Part shown: one piece after another, positions 3,573 through 23,963 of the stretch | How positions within the stretch are numbered: position 1 is the first letter of the stretch | Layout of the letters: each line of letters begins with the position of its first letter | Virus record (IMG/VR): IMGVR_UViG_3300023174_000591 | Location: 1-25,655 of that record | Origin: a virus | Strand: one strand, 5' to 3' | Length of the DNA: 25,655 nucleotides | Translations under genes and position numbers: made by a program | Notes under the pieces: model-generated | Database searches by the model: none | Told to the model about the DNA's origin: nothing | What the model saw: the letters and a program-made list of their open reading frames with translations, nothing else

Positions 3573-5009
3573 ATGAGCGGGATATTAGATAGCAAATCCA
3601 GAATTATAGATGCAATTCTTACCATTGACGGTCGACGTCAGATGGCCGAAGGAACTTTTGACATATCTTATGTCACATTTTCAGACTTGGGAGTTTCATA
3701 TGATCCTGATGTTAGTTCAGGACATGTTGATCCGACAAATAGAATTTATCTTGAGGCATGCAACTTACCTCAAGACCAAATAACATTTGAGGCCAATGAC
3801 CAAGGAAAGATTGTTCCTTTTAGATCTCAAGACATCAAAGTTTTATCTCCTGCAGACAGCATTAATGACGGTTTCTCAGAAGGATATCTTGTTGATGGTA
3901 AAATTGTTGTCAATGAATATCATTACGGCAGGAGAATTAAGGTCAATGCAGTCGTCGGAGATAAGTCAGACCATTTAAAAGGATTTATATATTCAGATTC
4001 TTTAGGTGTTACAGCAAGCATATTGCTTGATCCTTATAAGTCTTCTGCAACAATATCTGTTTCAGGGCCTCCTTACATCGGATTAATTGGAACCTCAGGT
4101 GGAATGAGCGCTAACCAATTCTCACAGGCTATTTCAGGTGCAATTGATCAGATAAAATTGTCCGGAGGACCAAATGTCAACTGTGCATCTAAAAGTTCAA
4201 CAGTGTTTCTTGATCTTGGACAAGATGCAACTGACACAAAGATATTCAGAACGGGATCAGTTCCATCACTAAATGTTATTGAATCTTCTGCAACAGGAGG
4301 TCAAATTGTTTCAATGCAATTAGAAAATGCCTCTTTTGCATCTCAAATCAAAGGAATCTTGACCTCTTCTTTTGATAATTTTGACAATCTATACACTCTT
4401 TCATCTGTTAACAGAGTTTTTGAGGACGATTTATTTAGTTTATCAACCAATGAGATGACTTTTGACCTGTCTAAGATCAGCTCAAAGACGTTAAATGTTT
4501 TTAGAGAATCTCCTCCCACACTTAATTCAATAGATTCTATTTTTAGTGATGACAAGATGAGTCATCTTGAAAATTTTATGTATTTACCGCCAATTGTAAA
4601 GACTTCAGACAGCATTGTCACTGATAAAACCAACGTAGATAACTTAAAACCCTACCTCTTAGGTGACTATCCTTCTTGGGGAGACAATGAAAAGAATCTT
4701 ACGTTCTTAAAATTGACAAACCAACTAAAAGAGTACGAAGACCCAATGCTGTCTGTGTACTTCAATAAATCTTCCAGAAACAACAACATCATCGGTCAAT
4801 TTTTTGAAGTAACTCCTACGTCAGTCAATAAATTGGATATTGTTGAATTTGGAGAAATGATGAATGATGCTCAAGAACCCGCTGCGGTAACTGATAAAGT
4901 ATTTTTTGTTGGAAAAACATTCATTGATAACAGAGGAACAACTTGTTTTGTCAACATGTTTACCTTGGTATTCACCAAAGACTCTAGGCAGGAAAGGCAG
5001 ATAGTCTGA
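3573..5009 (+). CDS. Phage virion protein, probably tail/baseplate
   Basis: A 478-residue protein whose first ~60 residues (ILDSKSRIIDAILTIDGRRQ, later FDISYVTFSDLGVSYDPD and YLEACNLPQDQITFEA) match a module I know from structural proteins of large marine phages. The same module pattern recurs in the 249-residue protein at 13560. The rest is Ser/Thr/Asn-rich, beta-prone and unrecognised, with no membrane segment or signal peptide. The ATG has a modest AGGTAG site and follows a candidate promoter. The stop overlaps the next start by one base (TGATG), so translation is probably coupled. It opens the long virion operon. Virion role comes from the N-terminal module and context; tail rather than head is inferred. 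Confidence 0.72.
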   Translation: MSGILDSKSRIIDAILTIDGRRQMAEGTFDISYVTFSDLGVSYDPDVSSGHVDPTNRIYLEACNLPQDQITFEANDQGKIVPFRSQDIKVLSPADSINDGFSEGYLVDGKIVVNEYHYGRRIKVNAVVGDKSDHLKGFIYSDSLGVTASILLDPYKSSATISVSGPPYIGLIGTSGGMSANQFSQAISGAIDQIKLSGGPNVNCASKSSTVFLDLGQDATDTKIFRTGSVPSLNVIESSATGGQIVSMQLENASFASQIKGILTSSFDNFDNLYTLSSVNRVFEDDLFSLSTNEMTFDLSKISSKTLNVFRESPPTLNSIDSIFSDDKMSHLENFMYLPPIVKTSDSIVTDKTNVDNLKPYLLGDYPSWGDNEKNLTFLKLTNQLKEYEDPMLSVYFNKSSRNNNIIGQFFEVTPTSVNKLDIVEFGEMMNDAQEPAAVTDKVFFVGKTFIDNRGTTCFVNMFTLVFTKDSRQERQIV

Positions 5010-7594
5010 TGGGATATATTCAGAAGTCTCAAATATCAGAAAAACCTCTTCTCCAAATAAATCCTGAAACATATGCAAAGCTGGTTGATCAAAATGATCA
5101 ATTTTTTGTCTTTGAATTTACAGTTAATGTCAAATTAGAGAACGAAGAAAATAAGCTTGAAAATTATGAAAAAATACTCTTTACTTTAAATAGGAGTAGC
5201 AATGATCTTTCTGACTCTAGTTATTCTAACTATCAAGACTCTGAAAACCTAAATATTGTCAATTTTTCTTTGTCTGAAGCAAATAAGAGCGTCAAAAAAA
5301 GGCCCCGCTATTCTTTAAAAATAGAAAACAGAATCTATTCTAATGCAAGGCTAATAGAAAAATCTCAAACATCAAACTTGTTTATAGAGAGAGTTGAAGT
5401 TCCTGTATCTCAATATGTTCAAAATAAAAATCAGACAGTAAGCTATGTCGAATTGTTTGCACCAAAATACAGAGAAAACTTAAATTCCTTAAAACAAAGA
5501 AGAGACCAAATTCTTCGTTCACCTGGAGGTCCTGGTGTTGTATCCGACAATTACGAAAAGTATTACTTTAATACAAACAACATATTGAAAAGAGTCAACA
5601 AAGAGTTGACAGACATTACTGAAAGTCTGACAGATGAGAGCGTATTAAAGTTAAACTCCAAATCTTTGCTTGATAATCCCCGGTATAAGATTTCCTATTT
5701 GAGTTCTGGGAAATCACAAATTTATTACGAATTTGTCAAATATCTTTTAACCGAAGTACCTGAGAGTCCTCAGGCTAACAAAATGACATGGTATGAAACA
5801 AGAGATGTCACCAAGAAAGTCACCGATGTTGATGTTAAAGTTTTGATGAGAATAAGAAAACAAAACAAAAACAGCAATTTAGTTTTAAAGATTGAGCTTC
5901 TTGAAAAAGGGTGTCATTCAACTGTAGAAACTCTGTATTCCGACTTATATCTTGCAAATTATATAGAATCTTACGAAAATGTTGTCAAACCACCGGAGAT
6001 AAATCTTCAACAGATAAACATGACACCTGACCTTGAAACTCACGGTAATTTTCTTAACGTAGTTTCAATTGTAGACAAAGATAATTCTGACAAGATTTCG
6101 TCTTATTCAATGTATCTTAAGAATGTTCACGAAAATGGAGCAGTTGATCCTTATGTAAAAATAGGAACTGTAAAGAAATCAGAAAAAACTGAGTTTCAGT
6201 TTAAATCTGAGTCTAAATTATCAATCCTAAGAGTTGTCCCTTTCTTAAAAAACAACAGAGAAAGTCATGTGTTTTCTTCAATTGCAATAGGTCCTGGACA
6301 TAAATTTATTAACAATTTATTCATAATTCCACAGAATTTTGGCAAAAATGAGATAAGAATTGACGTCTTTAACATTCCTGAATCTACAATTCTTCTTTCT
6401 CTTTACAAAAGAGATTGCACTGATAATCCAAACAGCTCATTTAAATTCTTAAGAGAAGTTCGACCAACACTAGGTTCGGGGACAGTTTCTTTTTCTGACA
6501 ACAAGACTTCTTTAAACAAAGTTTATGAATATTACGTTGTGGCACTGTCTATAGATGAAAATAACGGAATTGAATTACCAGCATATTCAAACTATGCTAT
6601 GATAAAAAATTTAACTGTAAGTGATGTTCAAAAATCTCTTTCTGTAAGAGTTGAAAACAAAAAGAGTTCAGCAGACCAAGAAGGGATAAAAAATTCATTC
6701 TTAATAAAGACTGTTGTAACCCCTGAAGAGAATCAGAGAATCACTGAATACCTTAAAAATCAAATAGGAGAACTTTATCAGCAGTTCTTAAATCCTTCAT
6801 CAAATTCATCATCTCCCCTAGGAGATGATAAAGGAATTCCGAACTATGCCGACTTATTTTTTCACCAAGTTGTTAGAAATAATTTGACAACAGGAGAAAG
6901 AGAAGCTTTTGATCTCATTTCTGATGGAGTTTTTGAAGACAAAATTGATACTCAGAAAATTTTTGCAGTGAAACCTCTGAACAAGAGGCACAATTATCTT
7001 TATCAAGTTTTCACATACAAAAAAAATCCTATAGACTTATTTAAAAATTTTGTTGCCAAAGGAGTTGACAAAAACGCTAGAGAGTGGTTTTATCTTCCAT
7101 ACAAGTGGAAAAATCCTCAAATTAAACTAGGAAAGATTTTTGCTGATGGTCCTGATGGAATACCTGTGATCAGTCCTTATGAAAACTTTACATCTGAATC
7201 TTTTGGAGTGACATCGGTACAACATGTTAAAAATTCAGAAATATATGACAGTGATGACAAAAAAGTTTTCACAAATAGAGTTGACAGAAATACAATAAAA
7301 ATAAATTGGACATCTGGCAATGAAGACGAGACGACTCAGTACGACTCTTTTGCCGTTCTTAAGGTTGTCAACGGAGTCAGATACATTCTTGGAAGAACAA
7401 GAACAAATTATATCTATCACAGATTGTCCGCAGAAGACATAGGATCCATCTATTACATAGTGGTCCCTATTATGTCTGAGTTCAACTTGTCATTGCCTCG
7501 TTATTCTGATCAGATAACCGTATTTCCTTCTGGGTTGTCAGAAAAGACTTCTGTGATAAATCATGATTTTAATTCTTTAAATAGATTGACTTGA
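5009..7594 (+). CDS. Large Fn3-like virion protein
   Basis: An 861-residue protein rich in Asn, Lys and Ser with repeated beta-sandwich-like stretches. The clearest is at residues ~735-850: IKINWTSGNEDETTQYDSF, then YHRLSAEDIGSIYYIVVP and RYSDQITV, the strand pattern of an Fn3-like domain. A second candidate ends in YEYYVVALSIDENNG then LPAYSNYA. Fn3 and similar domains are common in phage tail and baseplate proteins. No enzymatic motif is seen. The start codon overlaps the previous stop (TGATG), with AGGAAAGG upstream, and the next gene begins 9 bases after its stop. Coding is strongly AT-rich. Likely a tail or baseplate component with no specific T4 counterpart I can name. Confidence 0.65.
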   Translation: MGYIQKSQISEKPLLQINPETYAKLVDQNDQFFVFEFTVNVKLENEENKLENYEKILFTLNRSSNDLSDSSYSNYQDSENLNIVNFSLSEANKSVKKRPRYSLKIENRIYSNARLIEKSQTSNLFIERVEVPVSQYVQNKNQTVSYVELFAPKYRENLNSLKQRRDQILRSPGGPGVVSDNYEKYYFNTNNILKRVNKELTDITESLTDESVLKLNSKSLLDNPRYKISYLSSGKSQIYYEFVKYLLTEVPESPQANKMTWYETRDVTKKVTDVDVKVLMRIRKQNKNSNLVLKIELLEKGCHSTVETLYSDLYLANYIESYENVVKPPEINLQQINMTPDLETHGNFLNVVSIVDKDNSDKISSYSMYLKNVHENGAVDPYVKIGTVKKSEKTEFQFKSESKLSILRVVPFLKNNRESHVFSSIAIGPGHKFINNLFIIPQNFGKNEIRIDVFNIPESTILLSLYKRDCTDNPNSSFKFLREVRPTLGSGTVSFSDNKTSLNKVYEYYVVALSIDENNGIELPAYSNYAMIKNLTVSDVQKSLSVRVENKKSSADQEGIKNSFLIKTVVTPEENQRITEYLKNQIGELYQQFLNPSSNSSSPLGDDKGIPNYADLFFHQVVRNNLTTGEREAFDLISDGVFEDKIDTQKIFAVKPLNKRHNYLYQVFTYKKNPIDLFKNFVAKGVDKNAREWFYLPYKWKNPQIKLGKIFADGPDGIPVISPYENFTSESFGVTSVQHVKNSEIYDSDDKKVFTNRVDRNTIKINWTSGNEDETTQYDSFAVLKVVNGVRYILGRTRTNYIYHRLSAEDIGSIYYIVVPIMSEFNLSLPRYSDQITVFPSGLSEKTSVINHDFNSLNRLT

Positions 7595-7603
7595 AAGAAA
7601 AAA

Positions 7604-10600
7604 ATGGGATCTTCAAAACTGATAAAAGGAAAGCTGTCTTCATCAACAAAGGTTCACGCGACACCTCTGACTCCTGAAACAAAGAGCCCCTCATCTCTTT
7701 TAAATATTTCTCTCATTTCTGATAAAAAAATATATGATTTAGAACTTACATCAGACTCTTATAATTCAGAATTACCAACATCAGCAAATGAGTCTGAGAA
7801 GAAATTTCAGATCAATACAGGTTTGTTAGATACCGAACCTGCAATCTTGCTGACATCTGAATTTAAACCTCTGTACGGACAAGGCAAAAAAAGCGCTCAA
7901 GGTCAATCAATACAAATAAAAGAAGATGCAAAAATAATAACTGCAAAGACGGCCTTAGAGTTAATTTCTCAAAGTGAAGAAATAAAAAATATTGCAAGCA
8001 AAAATAAGCAAGAGATAATCAATTATGCTGATTCAGAAAATAAATTTCTCGTTCAGTTGATGTTGAATCTAAATAAAACAATTTCTTCACTTGACATCAG
8101 CACTTACGCAATACCTTCATTTAATCCTACAAAAAACATAGGATCTTTGTATGAGATACTGAAGAAGAACGGATATTCTTCTGACAGCATTGTTAAATTT
8201 TGTCAAACAAAACTTTGGCAACAAAGTCTTATTGAAGTAAAGAAATCACTTTTGTCACATAGCCCAGAATTGACGTCTCAAAATTCAATTAGAAGAAATT
8301 CTTTAGAAGATCATGATCCGTTCATCCTCTCCGACGTTGAGACAAATTCTGGAGATCAGAAAAGAATATGGATGAACTCTTATTCTTCTGATGATTTCTC
8401 TGTTCCTGACCAAAAAACTCTCATCATTTCGGACAAAATTGAAGACAATGTGACGAGAATAAAACGTTTCTCCGAAAGACAGTATGTAAATTTGTCTTTA
8501 TCTAATGTTTCATCTCCCTTTTCATTGGCCTCCTATGTGGAGTCATCAAGAGACATATCAATAATATCAAATATATTTTTTAAGGAATATCAGTATTCTA
8601 AATCTTTAAATGACCTTTCTTTAAAAAGTGTATTGCAAGATAAATTCGGCTACTCAATTTCCACTGAGACAAACAATTATAAGATCTGGGATCATCTTGT
8701 TGGAAGATTCTCGGCACAATCAATACAGTCCATTGCTAATGCAACAGGGAATGGAAATTCTCTTGCAAGTTATTCTCGAAAAAACATCGTTTCAGGGCAA
8801 GACAGCTATAACGTCTTGACATTTGAAAAAAGCATAATACCAGATTCAAATTCTACTCCTGGTTCTTACTATTACGTTGACAGCAGCTTAAACACTGTTG
8901 ATGGAGAAAATTTTGACACAACTCGTCTTGATTCTCTTGTTTCCATGACTCAATCTGCCCACTCGACGGTAGAAACTATTTTTCAAATTCTTGGGTATGA
9001 TTTTCAACAAACTTCAGACGCTTCAGGAAGAAACAAAGAGTCTTATAGTCGCACGGCAGGAAATCTTACTTTTGAATCTATAATGAGAAGAACAGGTCTT
9101 ATTACTGAATTTTATAAAAAGATTTTAAAAATAAACGGTCCTGAAAATCCTGAATTTTTCGGATACATTACTGGTATTCATTATGACAAAATAAAAAATG
9201 GTCAGTTTGTAAATCCTACTGATTCAAATTCAATTAGGCTTGCAGCTCTTATTTGTAAAGCTGCTGTCTATCCTTCTCCTGAATATTCTTCAATAGCTTC
9301 TACTCTTAAGTCTTATCTTTTCTTGTGGATTATTAACGTCTTAGATGCTCAACTGACAGTCCCTGACAAGACTTACTGGCAGGGGGATATGCAAATGGTT
9401 TCTTATAGCAATGCAAATGAGCTTACAATAAGTGAAATAAAGCTCAGAATAGCAAGCCTAATTGCAAGTGTAAAGACTAAAGAACAATACGATTCAGTCT
9501 TTGTTGCAGCTTCCAATGAATCAAGGACTTACATATTTACAGTAAGTGAAAAACCAGGAATTATAAATCAAGCAGATCAAACGGCAGATCAAGGGATTTA
9601 TCTGAACACAATACAGGACAAAATTTTTAACATAAATGGAATGTCAGGTTTATGGGGAATAATTGTACAAATTTTAAAAGAAATTCATCAAGATTCTTCC
9701 ATATACAGAGGAGAAAAAACTCTGTATTCGGGTTTCGAAAAAACTGCTTATCTTTTCTGCTGTTTTGACATGATTTTAAGAATAATAGCAAGTCAAACAC
9801 CTGAAAGTCTTGCTGGGACTTATTCTCAAAAGATCGAATACACATACACGGGACCAAATTATGAAGATCAGCTTTGGATTTCTCCGACAAACGATGTAAG
9901 TCCACAATCGTCAATTAAATCGTGGGAGAAGAGACCACCTCCGGTTCCTGCAGGTCCTCGAAAAATAAGCCTTTATGAAACAGGAATTCTTGTGGCTCCT
10001 TTGGACATGAATTCTCTTAATGAAGACTATTTTAATGGAAAATTCCTCTATAGAGAAATTGATGTAACTAAAAGTTCAAAAAAATTAGCTTCTTCTATTC
10101 AAAATTACAATGACGAACAAGATGTTGTTGCAAAACAGCTTTTTGTCTTTAGAAAATATCTTTTTGATCTTGGGACATCTTTGGCTTCTTTTAAGTCTTT
10201 TCTGACCAAAAACTTCAAAGATCAATTACAAAAATTGAAAAATTTGTATGCTCTCGATGGAGATCTTCTTGAGAACCAGAAATCATCTTTATTGAACCTC
10301 TCTTTCTCTGATGAACAGACTCGTTTGACACGATACATTTTGTCTGAAATCAAAGATAGAGCTTCTCTGACGACTGATTCAAATGCAAAAATCAAGTCAC
10401 TACCACAATTGTCAACTCTCCCGTCAGGATCTATAGATTTCTTTCCAGTCAATGACATTGAATTGGTTTCTTATTCTATTCTTTCAAAATATTTTCAGTC
10501 AAATGAATTTCTTTCTCAGAAAGGATATAACAAAAAGATAATCTCTGTTGGAATTCCTCCTAAGCTGAATAGAAAACTAAGGACTACGTCTTTCAGTTCT

Positions 10601-11536
10601 GGTGATTTAACTTCTGATTTTAAAAGAGGAATTGTAAGGCTGAGAATTTTTAAGGTTGACAGACTACATCCTGCGGTCGTTTTTCTTCCAAAGATATTTC
10701 TTTTTGACATGAATAGATTCCCCACTAGGGTTCTAAACAATTGGAATTATGAAACATTTTTGACAGAAGATTTTAATCTTCTTAGCGTGCCAAACAAGAT
10801 AGTTGTCGGAAATGGGCTTGTTCTTACATGTCGAGACTACAATTCATCTTTTCCAAAAGATTACTATGGAAACTTCTTGTCTGAATCACAAAAGCTCGAG
10901 ATTTATGCAAATCATTCAATAAGCTTTTTGTGCGAAGAATATTTGAGATGGTTCACTGAATGTAGGTTTGACGAAACCAGATACAACAATTTCTCTAAAT
11001 TAAAATCTACATTATCAAATATGGAAAACCAATTTCTAAATTATTCTAAAAATGTAAAAAGATCAACAACGTCCTCATCTTCTTCAGGGGCACTAAACTC
11101 TACCGTAGAGGCAATTTTCACAGATCCTACAAGTGGAACAAAATTTAAGGTTCCTGTCTATAAATCAAGGGATGAAAATTCACAAAGCAAAAAGAACTTT
11201 TCTATACCTTTTGATGAAACTCTTAAAAGCTATTTTTTAAATGAGACCTTCTTTTCTGATCCAACTCTATATAAGAAGAAAATTTCATATCCAAAAAAGT
11301 TTGACAGAGTTTTTTCTGTAATAATAGACCCTGATGATTTTTATGTAGACGAATCTGTTACACCAAAAGAAACTCTTGACAACCTAAAAGAGATTGGAGT
11401 TCTCGCTGGAGGGGACGATGGAACATCAAGGTCTTCTAAGCCCTATAAGAACAAAGATTCCGGACCAAACGATGTGTCTCTTGACGAATACTTCGTTACA
11501 GTGGAGCCCTCTGATTATGAAATGGAGTTTGACTGA
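7604..11536 (+). CDS. Giant (1310-residue) virion-associated protein, unrecognised
   Basis: The longest gene in the window; I do not recognise its family. It is soluble-looking, Ser/Asn/Lys-rich, with no signal peptide, membrane segment or nucleotide-binding motif. Residues ~100-210 look helical (TAKTALELISQSEEIKNIA and following), and the middle and end mix helices with beta-prone segments. The C-terminus has a Gly/Asp/Lys-rich loop and a very acidic end (EYFVTVEPSDYEMEFD). The ATG has GAAAGAA upstream as a purine-rich site. Its stop overlaps the next start (TGATG). Position between Fn3-bearing proteins argues for a structural tail or baseplate part. One sampled 60-base line (7981-8040) is only 23% GC. 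Confidence 0.6.
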   Translation: MGSSKLIKGKLSSSTKVHATPLTPETKSPSSLLNISLISDKKIYDLELTSDSYNSELPTSANESEKKFQINTGLLDTEPAILLTSEFKPLYGQGKKSAQGQSIQIKEDAKIITAKTALELISQSEEIKNIASKNKQEIINYADSENKFLVQLMLNLNKTISSLDISTYAIPSFNPTKNIGSLYEILKKNGYSSDSIVKFCQTKLWQQSLIEVKKSLLSHSPELTSQNSIRRNSLEDHDPFILSDVETNSGDQKRIWMNSYSSDDFSVPDQKTLIISDKIEDNVTRIKRFSERQYVNLSLSNVSSPFSLASYVESSRDISIISNIFFKEYQYSKSLNDLSLKSVLQDKFGYSISTETNNYKIWDHLVGRFSAQSIQSIANATGNGNSLASYSRKNIVSGQDSYNVLTFEKSIIPDSNSTPGSYYYVDSSLNTVDGENFDTTRLDSLVSMTQSAHSTVETIFQILGYDFQQTSDASGRNKESYSRTAGNLTFESIMRRTGLITEFYKKILKINGPENPEFFGYITGIHYDKIKNGQFVNPTDSNSIRLAALICKAAVYPSPEYSSIASTLKSYLFLWIINVLDAQLTVPDKTYWQGDMQMVSYSNANELTISEIKLRIASLIASVKTKEQYDSVFVAASNESRTYIFTVSEKPGIINQADQTADQGIYLNTIQDKIFNINGMSGLWGIIVQILKEIHQDSSIYRGEKTLYSGFEKTAYLFCCFDMILRIIASQTPESLAGTYSQKIEYTYTGPNYEDQLWISPTNDVSPQSSIKSWEKRPPPVPAGPRKISLYETGILVAPLDMNSLNEDYFNGKFLYREIDVTKSSKKLASSIQNYNDEQDVVAKQLFVFRKYLFDLGTSLASFKSFLTKNFKDQLQKLKNLYALDGDLLENQKSSLLNLSFSDEQTRLTRYILSEIKDRASLTTDSNAKIKSLPQLSTLPSGSIDFFPVNDIELVSYSILSKYFQSNEFLSQKGYNKKIISVGIPPKLNRKLRTTSFSSGDLTSDFKRGIVRLRIFKVDRLHPAVVFLPKIFLFDMNRFPTRVLNNWNYETFLTEDFNLLSVPNKIVVGNGLVLTCRDYNSSFPKDYYGNFLSESQKLEIYANHSISFLCEEYLRWFTECRFDETRYNNFSKLKSTLSNMENQFLNYSKNVKRSTTSSSSSGALNSTVEAIFTDPTSGTKFKVPVYKSRDENSQSKKNFSIPFDETLKSYFLNETFFSDPTLYKKKISYPKKFDRVFSVIIDPDDFYVDESVTPKETLDNLKEIGVLAGGDDGTSRSSKPYKNKDSGPNDVSLDEYFVTVEPSDYEMEFD

Positions 11537-13488
11537 TGCCGGTCAATTTTAAAAATAGATCAACAATACCCTTAAATGTTCCACGAGGACACGAGAATGC
11601 GATCTATGCAAATTTTGAAGAGATAGGAATACCTTCGGAAGACATTGGTAAGTCTTATCAATTTTATAAAAGCACAATGTCAGACCCGTCTGAGATCATC
11701 AGAGAGATTAATGTTCCTGAAGTTTTAGACTTAGAATCTAATTTTGTCTACAACTATTATCTGCGAGACGAAAGAATATCTTTTCAGATTTCAAACCTTT
11801 CACTTGACAAAATCCCAAGATATGTTTCTTTAAAGTGGACAGTTCCTTCTTTTTCACAGCTTACACAAGACACTTCGAATTCAGAGTCCAACAATGAATC
11901 GATGTCTATATCTTCCAATTCAGAAAAAATAATTTCTGAAGACAATTTTTTTAACCCGGGTTACGTCAGCCACACTTTTTCTAACGTATCCGCCATAGAA
12001 CAAGGTTCAACAGATTTAGAAAACTACAGCAGGATGTCTAGGCACGACGCAGAAAGCGTGTTTAAGATGTCTAAAAAACAAATACAGGAAATTGCAAATT
12101 TATATTCCTCAGACGACCCGTCTTTCAAATACATAAAAGGTCTTACTGATTCATACTCAAGACTTGCAGATATGCCAAAAACAAGTCTTGGGCTCAGCAT
12201 CTTTGACAAAGAAGGAAATCCAAACGACGAAGACGATTTAATGTCGTCAATTTCTAATTCCATATCATTAAATGTCAAAATTAGCAATGCAATTGTTCCT
12301 GATGTTTTTAAAGATTCAAAAGTAAAAAAAGACAAAGATAATCTTGAAAAACTTAACATCTCTTATGGAGACTCTTTAAGGGTCATCAGGGCAGAGAATT
12401 TACAGATACAGTCGATAAAAAACGATTGTTCCAAGACTTCGCTTCTTAATCTAAGCCAACCTGTCAAGATGATAGGTTTCATTGTTGACCGATATCTGAC
12501 GACTGCAGATGGAATTGTCAAAGATGAAACTTTTTACATAGAAAATTTTGAAAAGACTTCGCTTGAAGACAAAAGTGTTCTTTACGGAAGGTCTTATATC
12601 TACTCGGTAAGAACAGTTGCAAGCGTAAAGTTAATGTCTTACGATGTTCAAGGAAACATTGTTGACGTGTCAACTGTATATGTCGGATCAAGACCTGTTT
12701 CAGTTCCTGTCGAATGCTATGAGTACAAGCCACCTCCTGAGCCAAATAACATCAGGTTCACTTTTGACTACGTGAAAAGGAGCCTTGTCATTCACTGGGA
12801 TACCCCTGTTAATCCTCAAAGAGACATAAAGCAATTCCAGATTTTTAGAAGAAAAACCATTAAAGAGCCATTTGAGTTAATTGCTCAGTATGGTTTCGAT
12901 AAATCCAAGTTTGGACCAGGAACACAGAGATATAAAACCGGTGAAAGAGTCGATGCAAATAACTTTGAAAATATGAAAGAAGAAGACAAATATCTGGTCA
13001 CTAGGCAGGACGATTCATCTTCAGCAGAGAGATCAATATACACGCATATTGATGAAGACTTTACTGTAGATCCAGAATTTTACATTTCTTCTGAATACAT
13101 TTATGCCTTATCTTCTGTTGATGCCCACGGAATGATATCAAACTATTCTTCTCAACACCATGTTGTTTTTGATTCATATAAAAATAAGATTGTCACTAAA
13201 GTCGTGTGTGATGCAGGATCTCCAAGGCAGTATCCCAACATGAAGCTTAACACTGATGCTTTTAAGGACACAATAAGGGTATCTGGAGATTCTTCACGTC
13301 AAATGAAGGTATATTTCACTCCTGAGTATTTAAAAGTAAGAGAAGACAGAGATATGGTGTATAAAATAGTTGAGGCAAAAACTCAAAGATCTGATTCTTA
13401 TTACGTTCTTCAAATGATAAATCTGGACAACCAAAAGACTCAGCAGTTGAAAATTAATATTTTAGACCCAAAGGGTCTTACTGAATAA
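11536..13488 (+). CDS. Fn3-domain virion protein
   Basis: A 650-residue protein. The N-terminal part includes SNLSLDKIPRYVSLKWTVPS, resembling segments I know from marine phage structural proteins. Residues ~398-550 form a recognisable Fn3-like region: a PPPEPNN linker, IRFTFDYVKRSLVIHWDTP, FQIFRRKT, then EYIYALSSVDAHGMISNYS. The pattern of a Pro-rich entry, the IHWDTP strand and the YIYALSSVDAHG strand is typical of Fn3 in phage tail proteins. Its ATG overlaps the previous stop (TGATG) with GGAG upstream. A 71-base gap follows with no terminator or strong promoter that I can see. Likely a tail or baseplate component. Confidence 0.68.
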   Translation: MPVNFKNRSTIPLNVPRGHENAIYANFEEIGIPSEDIGKSYQFYKSTMSDPSEIIREINVPEVLDLESNFVYNYYLRDERISFQISNLSLDKIPRYVSLKWTVPSFSQLTQDTSNSESNNESMSISSNSEKIISEDNFFNPGYVSHTFSNVSAIEQGSTDLENYSRMSRHDAESVFKMSKKQIQEIANLYSSDDPSFKYIKGLTDSYSRLADMPKTSLGLSIFDKEGNPNDEDDLMSSISNSISLNVKISNAIVPDVFKDSKVKKDKDNLEKLNISYGDSLRVIRAENLQIQSIKNDCSKTSLLNLSQPVKMIGFIVDRYLTTADGIVKDETFYIENFEKTSLEDKSVLYGRSYIYSVRTVASVKLMSYDVQGNIVDVSTVYVGSRPVSVPVECYEYKPPPEPNNIRFTFDYVKRSLVIHWDTPVNPQRDIKQFQIFRRKTIKEPFELIAQYGFDKSKFGPGTQRYKTGERVDANNFENMKEEDKYLVTRQDDSSSAERSIYTHIDEDFTVDPEFYISSEYIYALSSVDAHGMISNYSSQHHVVFDSYKNKIVTKVVCDAGSPRQYPNMKLNTDAFKDTIRVSGDSSRQMKVYFTPEYLKVREDRDMVYKIVEAKTQRSDSYYVLQMINLDNQKTQQLKINILDPKGLTE

Positions 13489-13559
13489 CAGTCTTTATTG
13501 CAGAACAAAAAAAGAGACCAAGCATAATTACGGCATCGATAGTTCCACCCTGAGGCGAT

Positions 13560-14309
13560 ATGGGATACCTTGATCACAGCACAAATAACATTATTCTCGA
13601 CGCAGTTTTGACAGATTATGGACGTCAAAGATTGGCTACCGCCAACAGTGCATTTAACATTACACACTATTCCTTAGGAGATGATGAGATCGACTATAGA
13701 CTCATCAGGAAATACGGAAGAGCTGTAGGAAAAGAAAAAATAGAAAAGAACACTCCTATATTTGAAGCGCTTACCAACCCCAATATAGCTCTTAAATATA
13801 AACTGATAGGAAGAGAAAACGATGGAGTCTCTGTTTCTACAGTATATCTTCCATATCTAAAACTTGCCACTTCATCTCCTGCAATAGAGAGAACTGGAAA
13901 CAACAATACAAGCTCTTTTTCAGTCAAAGTGGATCTCTATTACAACAATACAACTGGTGATTTTGTTCCTGCTGAATTGCTGCAAACAATCTATAAAATT
14001 AAGATTTCTGACAGATTTTTTGTCGTAGAGAATCCTATTGGAGGCACTCTCACTCAAGCCGATGTTGCAAGAAGCATGGTAAATTCAGGAGATCCTAGTA
14101 GGATTGCTACATACACATTCACTTCGAGCCCTCCTTCGACATCAATTTCTTTTACCGTTAGGGCCAAAAATATCGACAATACGACTCTTTCTATCTATGG
14201 AAAGAGAATAACGAGCTCTAAGAGACAAATTACGGGTTACATTACTGTCATCGGCGAGCGCCACGGTTGCTCCATCGACATACCAATCACCTACACGGCA
14301 AATCTATAA
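13560..14309 (+). CDS. Phage virion protein with LDxS...DAxLTxxGR module
   Basis: A 249-residue protein starting GYLDHSTNNIILDAVLTDYG, followed by RQRLATANSAFNITHYSLG and DDEIDY. This N-terminus is a signature of a structural protein widespread in large aquatic phages and aligns with the start of the 478-residue protein at 3573. The remainder is beta-rich and ends in RAKNIDNTTLSIYGKRI and ITGYITVIGERHG, consistent with an Ig-like sandwich. GAGG upstream of the ATG is a reasonable ribosome binding site. GC content rises in the last ~70 bases (line 14221-14280 is 52%, the line before 38%). Its exact place in the particle is unknown; neighbours suggest the tail. Confidence 0.75.
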   Translation: MGYLDHSTNNIILDAVLTDYGRQRLATANSAFNITHYSLGDDEIDYRLIRKYGRAVGKEKIEKNTPIFEALTNPNIALKYKLIGRENDGVSVSTVYLPYLKLATSSPAIERTGNNNTSSFSVKVDLYYNNTTGDFVPAELLQTIYKIKISDRFFVVENPIGGTLTQADVARSMVNSGDPSRIATYTFTSSPPSTSISFTVRAKNIDNTTLSIYGKRITSSKRQITGYITVIGERHGCSIDIPITYTANL

Positions 14310-14329
14310 CTTAAATTGGAATTAGAGAC

Positions 14330-15637
14330 ATGGCGACAACCAAAGAGATTTTAGAATCTGACAAGAAGACAACAAGATCATTTCTCAATCAGCTGATTGA
14401 TGTCTTGCAAGAAGACATTAGCTCTTCTGTCTCTAGGAGAAAGTATCAAGTATTTGTCACGGGAGGAATAGGCCCCGGTGTCACATCTTCATTATTTCAA
14501 ACTGTATATGATCAAGACTTTACTTTGCAGACTGCAAACCCAGTCTTTGACGTGACATTTGGATTGGCAGCACCAGATGCCATTCTTTCCAACGGTTCAA
14601 CAAACACTGCAGGAGTAGCTGCTGCTACTTCAACAGGACAAGACTCGTCCGGAAAATATCTCTATCCAAGCAGTTCTTTAATGATGAGAGAGAAGACAGA
14701 TGTTTATGGGCAATTTGCTCAGACTCTTTTGGGAGACAGGACTGCAATGTTCAAGCTCCCAGATGATGCTTCATTCACATCATCTACATCCACGTCTGAG
14801 ATAGATTCTGCACTCTTCTTGGCATTTAAGCGTCTTTTCTCTAGGGACCAGATAAAGAGAGAGACGTTTGCAATGAGGTTCTATCAATCTGCATCTTATG
14901 TTGATAAGACTTTTACGTACCCCGAAAAAGGCGATATTCCTCCTTCTGTCGTCACCGATGGTGTTCCAAATCTTTATAGAACTTCAACTTCGGGTTCTTC
15001 AATTTTCACAGACATAGGATCTTCTGAAAATAGATATTTCGATGTAGGTGGTCAGTATGGATATATTGTAAATGCTTCTTCGACAACGAATGCTGTCGGA
15101 TTAATCTACTACGACTCTGGCGTTGTAGTTCTTGATGCTGAAAAGATCATATCAGGGTCTCAATTCGTCTCAGGAACAATCTCAGCAATGCATCCGCTGG
15201 GACAAATCACGTTAGGAGGGGTAGGCACTGCTACGTCCGAAAAAGCAAAAGTAATACCTGATCTAGTTACATCAGGAAGCATGGACGACATAATTGACCA
15301 TTTTTGCTATGCCCGTTTTGGAGATGGAGTTCTTACTGCAGTTACTTTCCAAAATGTGACAAATATTAATTCATCGTTAATATTCTGTAGAGCCCTTCCC
15401 GATGATTTCAATTATTCTTCAAATCCTACCTATATTGAGGACTCGGGAGACAACATCGGTAGGCTCATGGTATATGATCCATCTCTTCCTGATGAGACAC
15501 AAGAGCCGTTTTCATACATCACAACCATTGGATTGTATGACAATGCAGGTGGGCTTGTTGCCGTTGCCAAGCTTAGCAGGCCCGTTGAGAAGAACCCAGG
15601 TCGCGACCTCACATTCAGAGTTCGCCTGGATTTCTGA
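14330..15637 (+). CDS. Phage tail/baseplate-type protein with conserved C-terminal module
   Basis: A 435-residue protein. The N-terminus (ATTKEILESDKKTTRSFLNQ, then a KYQVFVTGG strand) is followed by beta-rich Ser/Thr-rich sequence. Residues 360-435 carry the module SSNPTY, then EPFSYITTIGLYDNAGGLVA, AKLSRPVEK and a terminal FRVRLDF, which I know from many large-phage virion proteins. A YDSGVVVLDAEK strand precedes it. The same C-terminal order is found in the next gene. It starts 20 bases after the preceding stop, with a GAG-containing site, and the next gene follows 20 bases downstream. GC rises near the 3' end (line 15541-15600 is 58%). Likely a tail or fiber-base component; no precise T4 equivalent assigned. 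Confidence 0.72.
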   Translation: MATTKEILESDKKTTRSFLNQLIDVLQEDISSSVSRRKYQVFVTGGIGPGVTSSLFQTVYDQDFTLQTANPVFDVTFGLAAPDAILSNGSTNTAGVAAATSTGQDSSGKYLYPSSSLMMREKTDVYGQFAQTLLGDRTAMFKLPDDASFTSSTSTSEIDSALFLAFKRLFSRDQIKRETFAMRFYQSASYVDKTFTYPEKGDIPPSVVTDGVPNLYRTSTSGSSIFTDIGSSENRYFDVGGQYGYIVNASSTTNAVGLIYYDSGVVVLDAEKIISGSQFVSGTISAMHPLGQITLGGVGTATSEKAKVIPDLVTSGSMDDIIDHFCYARFGDGVLTAVTFQNVTNINSSLIFCRALPDDFNYSSNPTYIEDSGDNIGRLMVYDPSLPDETQEPFSYITTIGLYDNAGGLVAVAKLSRPVEKNPGRDLTFRVRLDF

Positions 15638-18640: not shown

Positions 18641-19201
18641 GTGACGAATCTCATCCTAGGCCTCGATGTTTCCACTTCTGTTACGGGGGTCTGTGTAGCG
18701 GATCCTGACATCTCACCTGGTGGAGGTGCTAATATCGCCCATCTCGATCGCATCGAGTTCAAGAAGTGCGTGACCCTGTGGGATAAGGCCGATCGAGTGA
18801 AACAAGACCTCCTAGTCCTCAAGGCGAAGTTTCCTTCGATCTCAGGATTTGTCCTCGAGGAGCCGCTCCTCGGATTCTCAAAGGGAATGAGTTCCGCTGC
18901 CACCATCACCACCCTTATGCGATTCAACGGCATCGTGTCGTACATCGGGCGAGAGGTGTTCGGTCTCGAACCCACCTACATCTCCGCGGCATCAGCGAGG
19001 AAACTGTGCGGAGTGAAGTTGCAGAAGACCTCGGTGGCCGGCATGCCCCACAAGGAGCAAGTCTTCAAGCACATGTGCGAACACGACCTGTCCCACGTTG
19101 TGTGGCCCCTCACGCCTAAGTCGGGAGCGATAGTGGGATGGAGCAGGGATGCCACCGATGCCTACGTGATCGCCCGTGCTGCGTGTCTAGCAAAGAAGTA
19201 A
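18641..19201 (+). CDS. RuvC-like Holliday-junction resolvase (RNase H fold)
   Basis: A 186-residue protein with the resolvase signature order. Residues 4-16 read LILGLDVSTSVTG, with D9 the first catalytic acid; FVLEEPLLGF gives E73/E74; GLEPTYISAASARKLCGVK is the conserved central segment; and DATDAYVIARA supplies D170/D173 at the end. In phages such enzymes cleave branched recombination or replication intermediates so that concatemers can be packaged. Similar proteins with a SSAxTxxTLxRFNG segment, seen here as SSAATITTLMRFNG, are familiar from large marine phages. The start is GTG with only a weak GTGGGA upstream. It is GC-rich and lies 40 bases after the nuclease gene. The next gene has its own apparent promoter just after this stop. 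Confidence 0.86.
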   Translation: MTNLILGLDVSTSVTGVCVADPDISPGGGANIAHLDRIEFKKCVTLWDKADRVKQDLLVLKAKFPSISGFVLEEPLLGFSKGMSSAATITTLMRFNGIVSYIGREVFGLEPTYISAASARKLCGVKLQKTSVAGMPHKEQVFKHMCEHDLSHVVWPLTPKSGAIVGWSRDATDAYVIARAACLAKK

Positions 19202-19203
19202 TT

Positions 19204-19232
19204 TTTTCAAAAAAACCAGATACCAATATAAT
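19204..19232 (+). promoter_or_regulatory. Candidate promoter giving a leaderless transcript
   Basis: TTTTCA (19204-19209, 4/6), a 17-base spacer and a perfect TATAAT (19227-19232). The predicted start at about 19239-19240 coincides with the ATG at 19240, which has no ribosome binding site, as expected for a leaderless message. It begins 3 bases after the resolvase stop codon. Confidence 0.5.
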
Positions 19233-19239
19233 TACTGCC

Positions 19240-19641
19240 ATGAAACTCACTGTCAACCAACTCCGCCGCATCATTAAAGAAGAAGTTCAGAAGGTACTTA
19301 GTGAATCTTCTTACACAATTACGTCCGGACCACACGCCGGAGAAACTCACGATAAGCGTTCAGGCGTTTCTGTCAACAGAAACGGCGATCTAGTGCAGAT
19401 CACGGGTCATGGAACCGATGATATTCTAGCACATGATGGCGAGTTTTCTGTTACAAATTCTCCAAAGCCTGCGAGCCCCCGCGGTGCTTCAAAACCTGCA
19501 GTTTGGACAATTACAGCTGGACCTCACGCAGGAATACCTTACAGGAGGCGCGCCGCTTCTGTCAACAAAAACGGTGATCTAGTGATGATCACGGGCCACG
19601 GATCCTCAGAAGTTATAGCGCACGCCGGCGATTTCTACTGA
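19240..19641 (+). CDS. Small two-repeat protein of unknown function
   Basis: A 133-residue protein. The N-terminal helix LTVNQLRRIIKEEVQKVLSE resembles a leader I recall on many otherwise unrelated small proteins of large aquatic phages. Then come two tandem copies of a ~45-residue unit: residues 26-70 and 90-133. Each has TIT(S/A)GPHAG, SVN(R/K)NGDLV, ITGHG and a closing I(L/I)AH.G(E/D)F, separated by a 19-residue Pro/Ser/Ala linker. The repeats look like small beta domains; I know no function for them. I chose ATG 19240 over an upstream in-frame start because those extra 34 codons overlap the resolvase gene and are cysteine-rich out-of-frame translation. It is flanked by its own promoter candidate and a strong terminator, so it is probably monocistronic. 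Confidence 0.75.
   Translation: MKLTVNQLRRIIKEEVQKVLSESSYTITSGPHAGETHDKRSGVSVNRNGDLVQITGHGTDDILAHDGEFSVTNSPKPASPRGASKPAVWTITAGPHAGIPYRRRAASVNKNGDLVMITGHGSSEVIAHAGDFY
19315..19449 (+). repeat. Tandem protein-coding repeat, copy 1
   Basis: Encodes residues 26-70 of the two-repeat protein: TITSGPHAG, SVNRNGDLVQITGHG, then ILAHDGEFS. It pairs with 19507-19638. DNA has diverged at many third positions, so this is an old duplication rather than a recent slip. Confidence 0.85.
19507..19638 (+). repeat. Tandem protein-coding repeat, copy 2
   Basis: Encodes residues 90-133: TITAGPHAG, SVNKNGDLVMITGHG, then VIAHAGDFY. It is one residue shorter than copy 1 and ends the protein. Confidence 0.85.
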
Positions 19642-19692: not shown

Positions 19693-19732
19693 ATTTGTGA
19701 ACAGTTGAACGCGTGTGTGGTACGGTTGTACT

Positions 19733-20719
19733 GTGGCCATCTACAGTATCAGTGATAAACTCGCCTTTTTCGAGAGCGTTTTCGGAAAGGGGCACCTGTC
19801 GGGAAACGGGAAGAACTTCGATATTCGTTGCCCAATCTGCGCCCCTTCCGATGTGACGAAGAAGAAGCTCTCGATCAAGACGGATTGTGATGCCGCCCAC
19901 TGTTGGGTGTGTGGTTACAAGACCCGCACCATGGCACCGTTAATTCGGAAATATGGTACACAAGGTCAATTGGCCCGTTATCGTGAGATATTCGGTGGGC
20001 CCGAGAACCCCAACGAGATGGTCACGGGGGAGAGGACCGAGGTACAGAGGCTTGAACTCCCCAGGGACTTCACCCTCCTCCCTCTCTCCAACCAGAACGA
20101 TCCTGACGTGAAGGCGACCTGGCGTTACCTCTTCGGGCGCGGGCTCACGGAGAAGGACGCGTGGTACTTCAAGTTCGGGATCTCGAATGAACCTCGCTGG
20201 AAGAGGCGCGTCCTCATGCCCTCCTTCAACTTCAAGGGTGAACTAAACTACTTCACCGCCCGGGCGATAGACAAGGACCGGCGCCCCAAGTACGACAATC
20301 CAGAGGTGGACAAGAACCCCATCATCTTCAACGAGATCAACCTCAAGTGGGATCGCCAGATAGTCCTCGTGGAGGGTCCCTTCGACCTCGTGAAGTGCCC
20401 CGAGAACACCACCGCGATGTTGGGTTCAGACCTCGATGAACGCCACGAACTCTTCAATAGAATCCTCCTCCACGGAACTCCCGTGGCCCTGGCGATGGAC
20501 GGAGACATGTGGGACAGGAAGACCCCGAAGATCGCGAAGAAACTTCAGGAGTACAACATCGATGTGGTGATCGTGGACGTTCGCCCCTGGGGAGATCCCG
20601 GTTCGATGTCCCGCGCGGAGTTTGAGATCGCACTGGGAGAGGCGAGGACCCTCTCGTGGGGTGACAATTTCCTCACTAAACTGAACAGAGTGGTGAACAA
20701 TAGTGCGAGATGTTTTTGA
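19733..20719 (+). CDS. DNA primase with zinc finger and TOPRIM domain
   Basis: About 328 residues. The N-terminus carries a zinc finger, CPIC at 33-36 and CWVCGYKTRT with C57 and C60, flanked by KKKLSIK as in DnaG/T7 gp4-type primases. The middle includes a LMPSFNFKG strand region. The C-terminal half holds a TOPRIM core: VLVEGPFDLVK with the catalytic Glu, and the DGD of MDGDMW. No helicase domain follows, so it must act with a separate helicase. It would make RNA primers for lagging-strand synthesis. I prefer GTG 19733 (AIYSISDKLAFFESVFG, a typical family start) over in-frame GTG 19715; neither has a clear ribosome binding site. Coding is GC-rich (line 20101-20160 is 67%). Confidence 0.88.
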   Translation: MAIYSISDKLAFFESVFGKGHLSGNGKNFDIRCPICAPSDVTKKKLSIKTDCDAAHCWVCGYKTRTMAPLIRKYGTQGQLARYREIFGGPENPNEMVTGERTEVQRLELPRDFTLLPLSNQNDPDVKATWRYLFGRGLTEKDAWYFKFGISNEPRWKRRVLMPSFNFKGELNYFTARAIDKDRRPKYDNPEVDKNPIIFNEINLKWDRQIVLVEGPFDLVKCPENTTAMLGSDLDERHELFNRILLHGTPVALAMDGDMWDRKTPKIAKKLQEYNIDVVIVDVRPWGDPGSMSRAEFEIALGEARTLSWGDNFLTKLNRVVNNSARCF

Positions 20720-20744: not shown

Positions 20745-20822
20745 TATAACTGTGCACAGACAAGATACCAACATGGAAATTACTAGATTAACAGATGTGC
20801 AGTTTATTTCAGGAGAAATATT

Positions 20823-23800
20823 TTGATTATCGCGCACACTGCGGATGTGCACATCCGCGCGCTCTCTCGCCACGATGAATACAGACAAGTCCTCAAGGCT
20901 TTCACTGAAGATTGCAGGTCACAGAAGGTAGACCACATCTTCATCGGTGGCGACATCTTCCACACCAAGGTTACGGGTATCTCTCCGGAGTACATTGACT
21001 TCCTCACGTGGTGGTTGAACGACATGTCAACAGTCGCACCTGTCCACATGGTCCTCGGCAATCACGATGGCAATCTCGTCAATCTTTCACGACAGGACGC
21101 AGTCACTCCCATCGTGGAGGCGATGAAGAATCCTCGCGTCTTTCTCTACAAGAAGAGCGGGATCTACAACTTCGCACCAGGTTACAACTGGTGCGTATTC
21201 TCTTGTTTTAATGAGGAAGGTTGGGAGAACGTAAGACCAGTCCCAGGTGAGATCAACATTGCCACATTTCATGGTCCTGTGAGAGGATGCGTTACCGAGA
21301 CAGGGTGGGACATAAATGAAGAAGATATTACAGTTGACTTTTTTAAAGACTACAATTTCTGCATGCTCGGTGACATCCACAGGCAACAGTTTCTCGGATA
21401 CAGAGACGGCAAACCCTGGATAGGATATCCAGGTACACCGATTCAACAGAATTATTCTGAAGAATTAGAACACGGATATTATCTTTGGGATTTAATAAAT
21501 TCTTCTGAGTGGTCTGTCACCAACAGACTACTTCCGAACCCAAAGCCATTTGTCACAATTGACTGGGTCGGATCTTTGGATAAGACTCTTTATCTTGCAG
21601 AAAAGTGTCCTCAAGGAACCAGGTTCAGGATAAGGTCCAATGTTTCCATAACACAAAACGATGTTCACCTCTTAACTGAAACTCTTAGGGCTTCTTTAGG
21701 GGCAACTGAGGTCACTTACAAAATAGACGCTCAAATTGATACAAAAATTGTAAAAGAAAATACTGTTCTTCTAAAAAAAGAAGACATTAGAACTCCTGAG
21801 TCTATGACGAGCCTCTTGAAGAGCTACTATAAAGATCTTGGACTTTCAGAAGATGAGACAAATAACCTTTCTGATGTTTCACGCACCTATTTGAGTCAAG
21901 CAGCTACTTCTGAAGACATTTCTCGCTACTCCAAGTGGTCTCTCAGGAGACTTGAGTGGGACAATATGTTCTCTTATGGAGAAAATAATGTCATTAATTT
22001 TGAGAAGCTTAATGGAATAGTAGGAATATTTGGTCAAAATAGAACTGGAAAATCCTCAATTGTCGGTACTCTCATGTATGCGCTCTTCAACTCTACCGAC
22101 CGAGGTCCTGTCAAGAACATAAACATTTGCAATATTCGAAAAGATTTTTGTTCTGCAAGAGTCGTACTTGATCACAACGGCACTTCTTATGTAGTTGAAA
22201 GACAAACAACAAAATCTGCAAACAAAAAAGGAGTTATAAACGCATCAACTTCACTAAACCTCTTCAGAATGAGAGAAGACGGTGAAGACATGGATGACCT
22301 TTGTGGAGAACAAAGAAATGACACTGAAAAGACGGTTCGGTCTCTTCTAGGTCACCCGGACGACTTCCTGATGACGTCTCTTTCGGCCCAAGGAGAGTCG
22401 AACATATTCATACATCAAGGATCTTCAAAAAGAAGATCAATCCTTTCCAGATTTTTAGACCTCGACATTTTTGACAGGATGCATGATTTGTCTTCCAAAG
22501 AGGTGACATCTATTAAATCTCAGTTGAAGAATTACCCCGAGAGAAATTGGGAACAAATTAGAGAACAACTGAAATCAGAAATGTCTGCTTTAGAAAACAA
22601 GATCAGAGAGCTCTCTGATCTGTCACTTGAGGGACAGACCTCCCTTGCGCTCTTACGCGAAGACCTTTCTAAACATGCTTCATCTCCAGTGACAAAAGAG
22701 GACGTTGATGTCCAACAAAGAAGGGTTGAATTCTTAAAGAGAAAGTCGAGTGACTGCAATTCTCAGATAGAGATTCTTGAAAATGATGTAAGCAAACTAC
22801 AAGAAAAACAAGATGCATTGCAGGATCTTCTTGATTCAATTGATGTAGTTTTTCTTAGATCAAAACAAGAGACCCAGCGTAGGCTTCAGAGTGCAATAAC
22901 AGAGTTAAAACATCTTCATGACAAAGAAGACACACTTCTTACTTCTCAAAGAAAGTCTCTGAATATTCTTGACGAAGTCCCTTGTGGGGATGAATACCCT
23001 TCGTGCAAATTCATCAAAGATGCACATAAAAACAAGTCTTTATTTGTTGAACAGGAAAAAAGGGTGAAGAAAGCTCTTTCGGTCCTCGAAGAAGCTCAAA
23101 AATCTTTTGAATTAGTAAATGATGCAACGGTTGTTAGCAAGATAGAAAAACACGAAAAGGCTCATCAATTGCTTGGTAAAATCTCTCTTGAGATATCAAA
23201 AAAAGAGACTGATATAGCAAAAATACTTTCTGCTTGCAAGAGCTGTTCAGAAGATTTAAAGGCAGCAGAAAAGAAGCTGTCTGATTTGCAAGATTCTTTG
23301 TTAAAAGAAGACAATGAAGAGTCTATTTTGATTAGAACAAAGATGTCGGAAGTCTCCGAAACAATCAAAGACTATGATACGCAAAAATTATTGTGTGCAT
23401 CCAGGCTTGGAAAACTAAATTCAGACCTTGATAAACTTGAAGACGAAAAAAAGAGCAGAGACAATCTTTTGTCTAATGTGAGGACACACGAGCTCGTCTC
23501 TAATGCTTTTTCTAAGAAAGGAATTCCTCTTCTTGTGATAAAAAATCAGTTGCCTCTGATAAATTCGGAAGTCTCCAAGATTCTTCAAGGAATAGTGGAT
23601 TTTACAGTCGAAGTTGAGTCAGACGAAGACACTGACTCGTTAGAGATTTACATCAACTATGGTGATTCACGAAGAATAATAGAGCTCTGTTCTGGTATGG
23701 AGAAGATGATATCTTCCATAGCTCTTAGGGTAGCAATGCTTAATGTTTCGGCACTTCCTCGCCCTGACTTCTTTGTGATAGACGAGGGTTTTGGCGCTCT

Positions 23801-23963
23801 AGACAGTGCAGGAGTTGAATCTTGCAGCCGATTTCTTTCGTCTTTAAAGAGTTACTTTAAGACTGTGATAGTAATAACTCACGTCGATGGAATAAAAGAT
23901 TCTGCAGACCATATACTAGAGATAACAAAAAACGAGAAGGATTCAAGGATGGAGTTTTCATGA
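20823..23963 (+). CDS. Single-chain Mre11-Rad50 (SbcD-SbcC; T4 gp47-gp46) fusion nuclease
   Basis: A 1046-residue protein uniting two subunits that are normally separate. Residues 1-~240 are the Mre11/SbcD phosphoesterase: D8 and H10 (ADVH), D44 (GGDIFH), N80-H81 (GNHD), H150 (TFHG) and D184/H186 (GDIH). Residues ~375 on are Rad50/SbcC: Walker A G404-S411 (GQNRTGKS), a long coiled coil (~560-930) with a C721-x6-C728 pair near its middle, a signature LCSGME near 953 and Walker B FFVIDEGFG. The complex processes DNA ends for recombination-driven replication. The start is TTG with AGGAG 7 bases upstream; it yields the typical IIAHTADVHI beginning. The stop overlaps the next gene (ATGATG). Coding switches from GC-rich to AT-rich around 21300-21430. 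Confidence 0.93.
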   Translation: MIIAHTADVHIRALSRHDEYRQVLKAFTEDCRSQKVDHIFIGGDIFHTKVTGISPEYIDFLTWWLNDMSTVAPVHMVLGNHDGNLVNLSRQDAVTPIVEAMKNPRVFLYKKSGIYNFAPGYNWCVFSCFNEEGWENVRPVPGEINIATFHGPVRGCVTETGWDINEEDITVDFFKDYNFCMLGDIHRQQFLGYRDGKPWIGYPGTPIQQNYSEELEHGYYLWDLINSSEWSVTNRLLPNPKPFVTIDWVGSLDKTLYLAEKCPQGTRFRIRSNVSITQNDVHLLTETLRASLGATEVTYKIDAQIDTKIVKENTVLLKKEDIRTPESMTSLLKSYYKDLGLSEDETNNLSDVSRTYLSQAATSEDISRYSKWSLRRLEWDNMFSYGENNVINFEKLNGIVGIFGQNRTGKSSIVGTLMYALFNSTDRGPVKNINICNIRKDFCSARVVLDHNGTSYVVERQTTKSANKKGVINASTSLNLFRMREDGEDMDDLCGEQRNDTEKTVRSLLGHPDDFLMTSLSAQGESNIFIHQGSSKRRSILSRFLDLDIFDRMHDLSSKEVTSIKSQLKNYPERNWEQIREQLKSEMSALENKIRELSDLSLEGQTSLALLREDLSKHASSPVTKEDVDVQQRRVEFLKRKSSDCNSQIEILENDVSKLQEKQDALQDLLDSIDVVFLRSKQETQRRLQSAITELKHLHDKEDTLLTSQRKSLNILDEVPCGDEYPSCKFIKDAHKNKSLFVEQEKRVKKALSVLEEAQKSFELVNDATVVSKIEKHEKAHQLLGKISLEISKKETDIAKILSACKSCSEDLKAAEKKLSDLQDSLLKEDNEESILIRTKMSEVSETIKDYDTQKLLCASRLGKLNSDLDKLEDEKKSRDNLLSNVRTHELVSNAFSKKGIPLLVIKNQLPLINSEVSKILQGIVDFTVEVESDEDTDSLEIYINYGDSRRIIELCSGMEKMISSIALRVAMLNVSALPRPDFFVIDEGFGALDSAGVESCSRFLSSLKSYFKTVIVITHVDGIKDSADHILEITKNEKDSRMEFS

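Follow-up and report, generated by a model that had tools for sequence, protein, structure and literature searches.

The fusion gene and its genomic context

The window, i.e., the whole stretch of 25,655 nucleotides that was analysed (IMG/VR virus record IMGVR_UViG_3300023174_000591), carries a gene for a fused Mre11-Rad50 (SbcDC) protein (20823..23963), recognised by its open reading frame, its domain matches and a structural model. The gene is located on the plus strand, as are all of its motifs and domains and the conserved neighbours described below. It begins with a TTG codon and encodes 1046 amino acids, and a Shine-Dalgarno-like AGGAGA, read from the sequence as the probable ribosome-binding site (20811..20816), lies 6 nucleotides 5' of the start. 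The frame is found where the earlier note on this DNA had placed it and contains no internal stop, which bears out the claim of one uninterrupted frame holding both nuclease and ATPase. In the domain search that the note had proposed, Pfam Metallophos (PF00149) matches residues 3-187 above its cut-off (E 1e-12), the SbcD-like phrog_100 residues 3-364 (E 4e-28) and the SbcC-like phrog_77 residues 299-1044 (E 3e-56). Pfam, PHROGs and NCBIfam all place an Mre11/SbcD-like nuclease at the N-terminus and a Rad50/SbcC-like ATPase at the C-terminus, the window protein scoring far under the cut-offs that NCBIfam sets for SbcC and SbcD. By homology, the gene product is very probably an end-processing nuclease in which a large tailed phage combines Mre11 and Rad50 (SbcD and SbcC) in a single chain, and belongs to the R555-type fusion group of aquatic viruses. 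Being a single chain, the protein holds its two activities at 1:1 stoichiometry, as had been claimed.

The gene lies in a conserved neighbourhood. Upstream are a RuvC-like resolvase (18641..19201; phrog_159), syntenic in 105 of 144 loci, and a DnaG-like primase (19715..20719; phrog_47 and TIGR01391; 117 of 144), and downstream a large terminase that is cut by the contig end (24648..25655; PF03237; 127 of 144). The order RuvC-like resolvase, primase, fusion, two small genes and terminase is kept in most of these 144 loci. Between the RuvC-like and primase genes, the window has a small ORF (19138-19641), missing from this position in locus L002, that contains two internal repeats (TITSGPHAG...NRNGDLVQITGHG) and whose true start may be the internal MKLTVNQLRRIIKEEVQKVL. 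Further upstream, a 475-residue PIN and PhoH protein is encoded at 2096-3523, and positions 3573-15637 hold large ORFs (478, 861, 1310, 650, 249 and 435 amino acids) that matched no PHROGs or Pfam family and probably encode virion proteins.

The Mre11 nuclease half

The Mre11 phosphoesterase domain comprises residues 1-225 (20823..21497), as delimited by the PF00149 match, conservation and the model. D8, H10, D44, N80-H81, H150, D184 and H186 are all present and nearly invariant among 96 aligned family members, and Mre11/SbcD chains are among the Foldseek matches of the window model. The domain thus combines the Mre11/SbcD fold with the metal-ligand motifs, one ligand being Asp and not His: Asp184 occupies the place of the canonical His in 96 of 96 members, which gives GDxH where the usual motif is GHxH. 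Judged from its residues, the active site is complete but variant. The earlier note had called the phosphoesterase motifs complete; every residue that it named is there, and only the word is slightly too strong.

The change from GHxH to GDxH could alter metal binding. In its extreme form this would make the Mre11 half a catalytically dead clamp, which has lost a metal ligand and only tethers DNA, an idea in line with the presence of the Asp in all 96 aligned members and with the equal His to Asp change in Mimivirus R555, which shares the GDxxH motif and also has Asp in place of Pyrococcus His206 (Yoshida et al., 2011; PMC3175470). It is nevertheless very unlikely, because the remaining ligands are invariant or nearly so, Asp can bind Mn2+, and the strict conservation of the full active site argues for catalysis. 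Within the phosphoesterase core, the AlphaFold2 model also contains a β-hairpin (residues 189-202; 21387..21428) with strands 189-194 and 197-202. Its turn (residues 195-196; 21405-21410) is the site at which the gene is split in some relatives and is intact here.

The Rad50 ATPase half and its hook

The C-terminal half contains the Walker A, Q-loop, signature and Walker B of a Rad50/SbcC ATPase, with a long coiled coil in between. Walker A (GQNRTGKS, residues 404-411; 22032..22055), conserved in 96 family members, is followed by an outgoing coiled coil (548-718; 22464..22976), a hook at its tip (719-731; 22977..23015) and a returning coiled coil (732-896; 23016..23510), both coils being delimited on the model. 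The ABC signature SGMEK (957-961; 23691..23705) and Walker B FFVIDE (983-988; 23769..23786) are assigned from sequence and conservation. The ATPase residues are nearly invariant among the 96 members, and the best Foldseek matches are Rad50 of MRN (7zr1, E 4e-20) and chains of E. coli SbcCD (7yzp and 7yzo). Together with the Pfam and PHROGs matches, the nuclease motifs and the model, this confirms the joining of a complete Mre11 to a complete Rad50.

The hook departs from the CXXC zinc hook, the sequence and the model placing C721-X6-C728 at the coiled-coil tip, and the window ATPase is thus of the Rad50 type with a variant hook. Of 96 sampled family members, 92 have CX6C, and CXXC occurs among them only in the deep clade; it is also present in the Microcystis phage Mel-JY01 and in LR756508 (L223). 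A search with the hook region among cultured phages gave no matches. Such a hook could change how metal is bound or how dimers form, and it challenges the idea that every Rad50 hook is CXXC.

Architecture of the fused chain

An AlphaFold2 model of the window chain, built with 55 sequences, has a mean pLDDT of 84.2 and contains all expected domains in sequence order; with a full-chain pTM of 0.53, it does not fix their relative placement. The phosphoesterase domain is followed by a capping-like domain (residues 226-301; 21498..21725), recognised by its order of secondary-structure elements and by the Foldseek matches to Mre11/SbcD, a partly poorly predicted stretch (302-324), a helix-loop-helix (325-360; 21795..21902) with helices 325-335 and 343-360, and a linker to Rad50 of about 10 residues (361-370; 21903..21932). 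Both the capping domain and the helix-loop-helix that characterise Mre11/SbcD are therefore present in the model. In known Mre11 structures the helix-loop-helix contacts the root of the coiled coil (PMC3175470), from which a Rad50-binding role is putatively assigned to the one described here. The earlier note had supposed that the fusion removes the usual interface between the two proteins, which does not agree with a model that retains the capping domain, the helix-loop-helix and the short linker. On this model, the fusion seems to tether the existing Mre11-Rad50 contact, neither removing nor replacing it, in agreement with what Yoshida et al. (PMC3175470) describe for linker and helix-loop-helix in proteins of this kind.

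By analogy with the known machine, two fused chains would pair via Mre11, the ATPase heads and the hook, and ATP binding and hydrolysis would gate the recognition and cutting of DNA ends. The fused enzyme may prepare ends for recombination-dependent phage replication and for packaging, a role that would fit its primase, RuvC-like resolvase and large terminase neighbours.

Fused relatives and known Mre11-Rad50 systems

Related loci were collected in five IMG/VR scans, four of which used proteins or alignments of the family as queries and the fifth an endonuclease. Among the first 128 loci besides that of the window, 92 are fused (93 if the window, L001, is counted), 18 are split and 18 are cut by contig ends, a small number of contigs being listed under two locus ids. 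These proportions do not represent population frequencies, since similarity to the window or to split members decided which loci were taken. The fused loci derive from many metagenomes and illustrate the abundance of the fusion among environmental phages. The search for the same fusion in related phages, suggested in the earlier note, was thus positive, and the finding that would have spoken against it there, i.e., that all relatives carry two separate genes, was not made: only a minority is split, and inside the nuclease. A full Mre11-Rad50 fusion of 1066 amino acids and 30% identity is encoded by the cultured Microcystis phage Mel-JY01 (L222, 3359-6559), where it is annotated merely as an AAA domain protein, and a 735-kb phage (L224) also carries the fused gene. 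The scan of prokaryote genomes returned a sole locus (L226), 43% identical and part of a Halobacteriovorax MAG, which its gene order identifies as a phage contig; its presence there, with the same gene order, may be a hint of the host or the result of mis-binning.

These relatives also bear on the possibility that an assembly or sequencing artefact has joined two genes. The window comes from a metagenomic virus record that offers no reads for inspection, which leaves room for such an error; however, the same frame is present at full length in two independent contigs (L002 and L003) that are 77-80% identical over the full length, the fusion is found at 92 other loci, and the Mel-JY01 protein comes from a cultured phage genome. 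With so many independent fused contigs and a cultured phage, an assembly error is ruled out and an artefact of any kind is vanishingly improbable.

The fusion itself is not new. The earlier note had presented it as a natural variant of the MR machine; the same kind was published in 2011 and is common in environmental phages, and the window gene is an additional case. Yoshida et al. (2011; PMC3175470) described Mimivirus R555 and twelve other fusions, one of them in the Bacillus phage 0305phi8-36; their fusions also came from bacteria, plasmids and aquatic viral metagenome scaffolds, on which they lie beside phage primase and endonuclease genes. Like the window protein, these R555-type fusions consist of Mre11 followed by Rad50 in one unbroken chain, with the helix-loop-helix retained and a short linker, and the aquatic viral relatives share the neighbourhood of primase and endonuclease genes (PMC3175470). 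The window differs from R555 (1351 amino acids), with which it was compared by published residue changes only, in being a tailed-phage gene and in its CX6C hook. T4-type phages retain two genes. In one of them, the Aeromonas phage Aeh1, gp47 and gp46 have homologous domains in the same order, but they are encoded by two genes with a 1-nt overlap and have a GHYH motif (gp47) and a CPTC hook (gp46) where the window has GDxH and CX6C. Profile comparison gives a match to T4-type gp46 with E 9e-17, and to gp47 with E 3e-5 at only 73% hhalign probability. In bacterial SbcCD both subunits have the same fold and domain order as here (Foldseek), but they are two proteins with canonical motifs.

Relatives broken inside the nuclease

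The tree alignment contains 18 split rows, two of which are nearly identical. Their break falls at one place, the hairpin turn that corresponds to window residues 195-196, and thus inside the nuclease and not at the Mre11/Rad50 boundary. In trees built without the hairpin columns, the fused gene is re-split in at least 4 places and the fused or split state changes at least 6 times, against at least 13 in 500 shuffles. The break may contain a homing-endonuclease-like gene, which is Vsr-like in L036 (2979-3881; region identical in L051), L023 (5144-6013) and L132 (about 4905-5867) and has a TnsA-like nuclease domain in L223 (LR756508, 3162-4076). L027 contains a remnant of the L036 element (2440-2570), both edges of which are kept while the interior is deleted, and its gene is in two pieces. 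Both L036 and L027 sit within a fused clade, and in DNA the first 535 nucleotides are about 80% identical between L036 and the fused L028. At several other split loci, the stop of the first piece and the start of the second share four nucleotides. No report of an Mre11 or Rad50 gene split by a homing endonuclease was found in the open-licence literature.

The pieces carry short charged extensions. Net charge in the scored split loci is -4 to -7 (-11 in L223) for the acidic tail of the first piece and +4 to +6 (+5 in L132, only +1 in L223) for the basic head of the second, compared with -2 to +3 in fused hairpins; by eye, L090 and L108, outside the scoring, follow this pattern too. Pairwise comparisons, when pooled, give a pN/pS of 0.33 in tails and 0.42 in heads, ratios that are rough given the near saturation of synonymous sites; they point to both extensions being translated and maintained as protein.

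Several ways of re-joining the pieces were considered and rejected. A split intein comprises N- and C-inteins of about 100 and 35 amino acids with Cys/Ser and Asn-Cys/Ser/Thr junctions, while the extensions (about 20-30 and 10-15 amino acids) are too short and lack junction residues. A self-splicing intron finds no Rfam match and does not agree with extensions conserved as protein, and a programmed frameshift fails as a general rule, since the frame relation of the pieces varies by locus, being the same in L004, L027 and L036 and shifted in others.

A model of the L027 region, computed as an artificial joined chain read through the stop codons, predicts strands 190-202 and 235-247 with good confidence and a disordered scar between them; in the structure alignment of the split form, the head columns are covered by only two rows. 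In this model tail and head appear as a lengthened hairpin, in which we infer that the two strands pair. It is fairly probable that this one hairpin was the site of repeated re-splitting of the fused gene by homing endonuclease genes and that the pieces assemble without splicing, through pairing of acidic tail and basic head as lengthened hairpin strands. Alternatively, two genes with the break inside the nuclease could be the ancestral form and the window gene one of several re-fusions, which would explain why split loci in distant clades share similar acidic tails, why the length of fused hairpins ranges from 7 to 17 residues and why the state changes at least 6 times on the tree. This order of events is unlikely, because the distant clades sampled are mostly fused, known Mre11 proteins are unbroken at the hairpin, and the scar in L027 and the loci with an endonuclease gene resemble insertions.

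Repeated re-splitting by endonuclease genes would have a counterpart in the nrdA-a/mobE/nrdA-b genes of Aeh1, where a free-standing endonuclease gene also lies between two pieces of one enzyme and the pieces also bear short new extensions of opposite charge. These extensions are said to be required for NrdA activity, a result attributed to Crona et al. in 2011. According to a review (PMC2988022), Aeh1 NrdA in its split form is fully functional as an enzyme. In Aeh1 (L221, 41489-44628) the tail of NrdA-a is basic (+6) and the head of NrdA-b acidic (-9), a polarity reversed with respect to split Mre11, in which the first piece is acidic and the second basic. The split relatives differ further in enzyme and endonuclease families, and in that one site is affected in several distant lineages. 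If true, and taken with Aeh1 NrdA, opposite-charge strand pairing would be a general means by which phages tolerate a broken essential gene, of which the window represents the unbroken form. The relatives constitute a natural allele series of one enzyme (fused, endonuclease-interrupted, scarred and endonuclease-free split), which makes it testable how a phage survives a mobile gene inside an important enzyme, and protein engineering could draw on their natural split points and pairing strands.

Related endonuclease genes also occur in other settings. In L137, L149 and L151-L154 they lie between two apparent pieces of a tRNA nucleotidyltransferase/poly(A) polymerase that are devoid of charged extensions, and in L133 (around 4380-5432) one is located between the apparent halves of a split intein, the C-intein of which ends in ...RILANNFYTSN before C.
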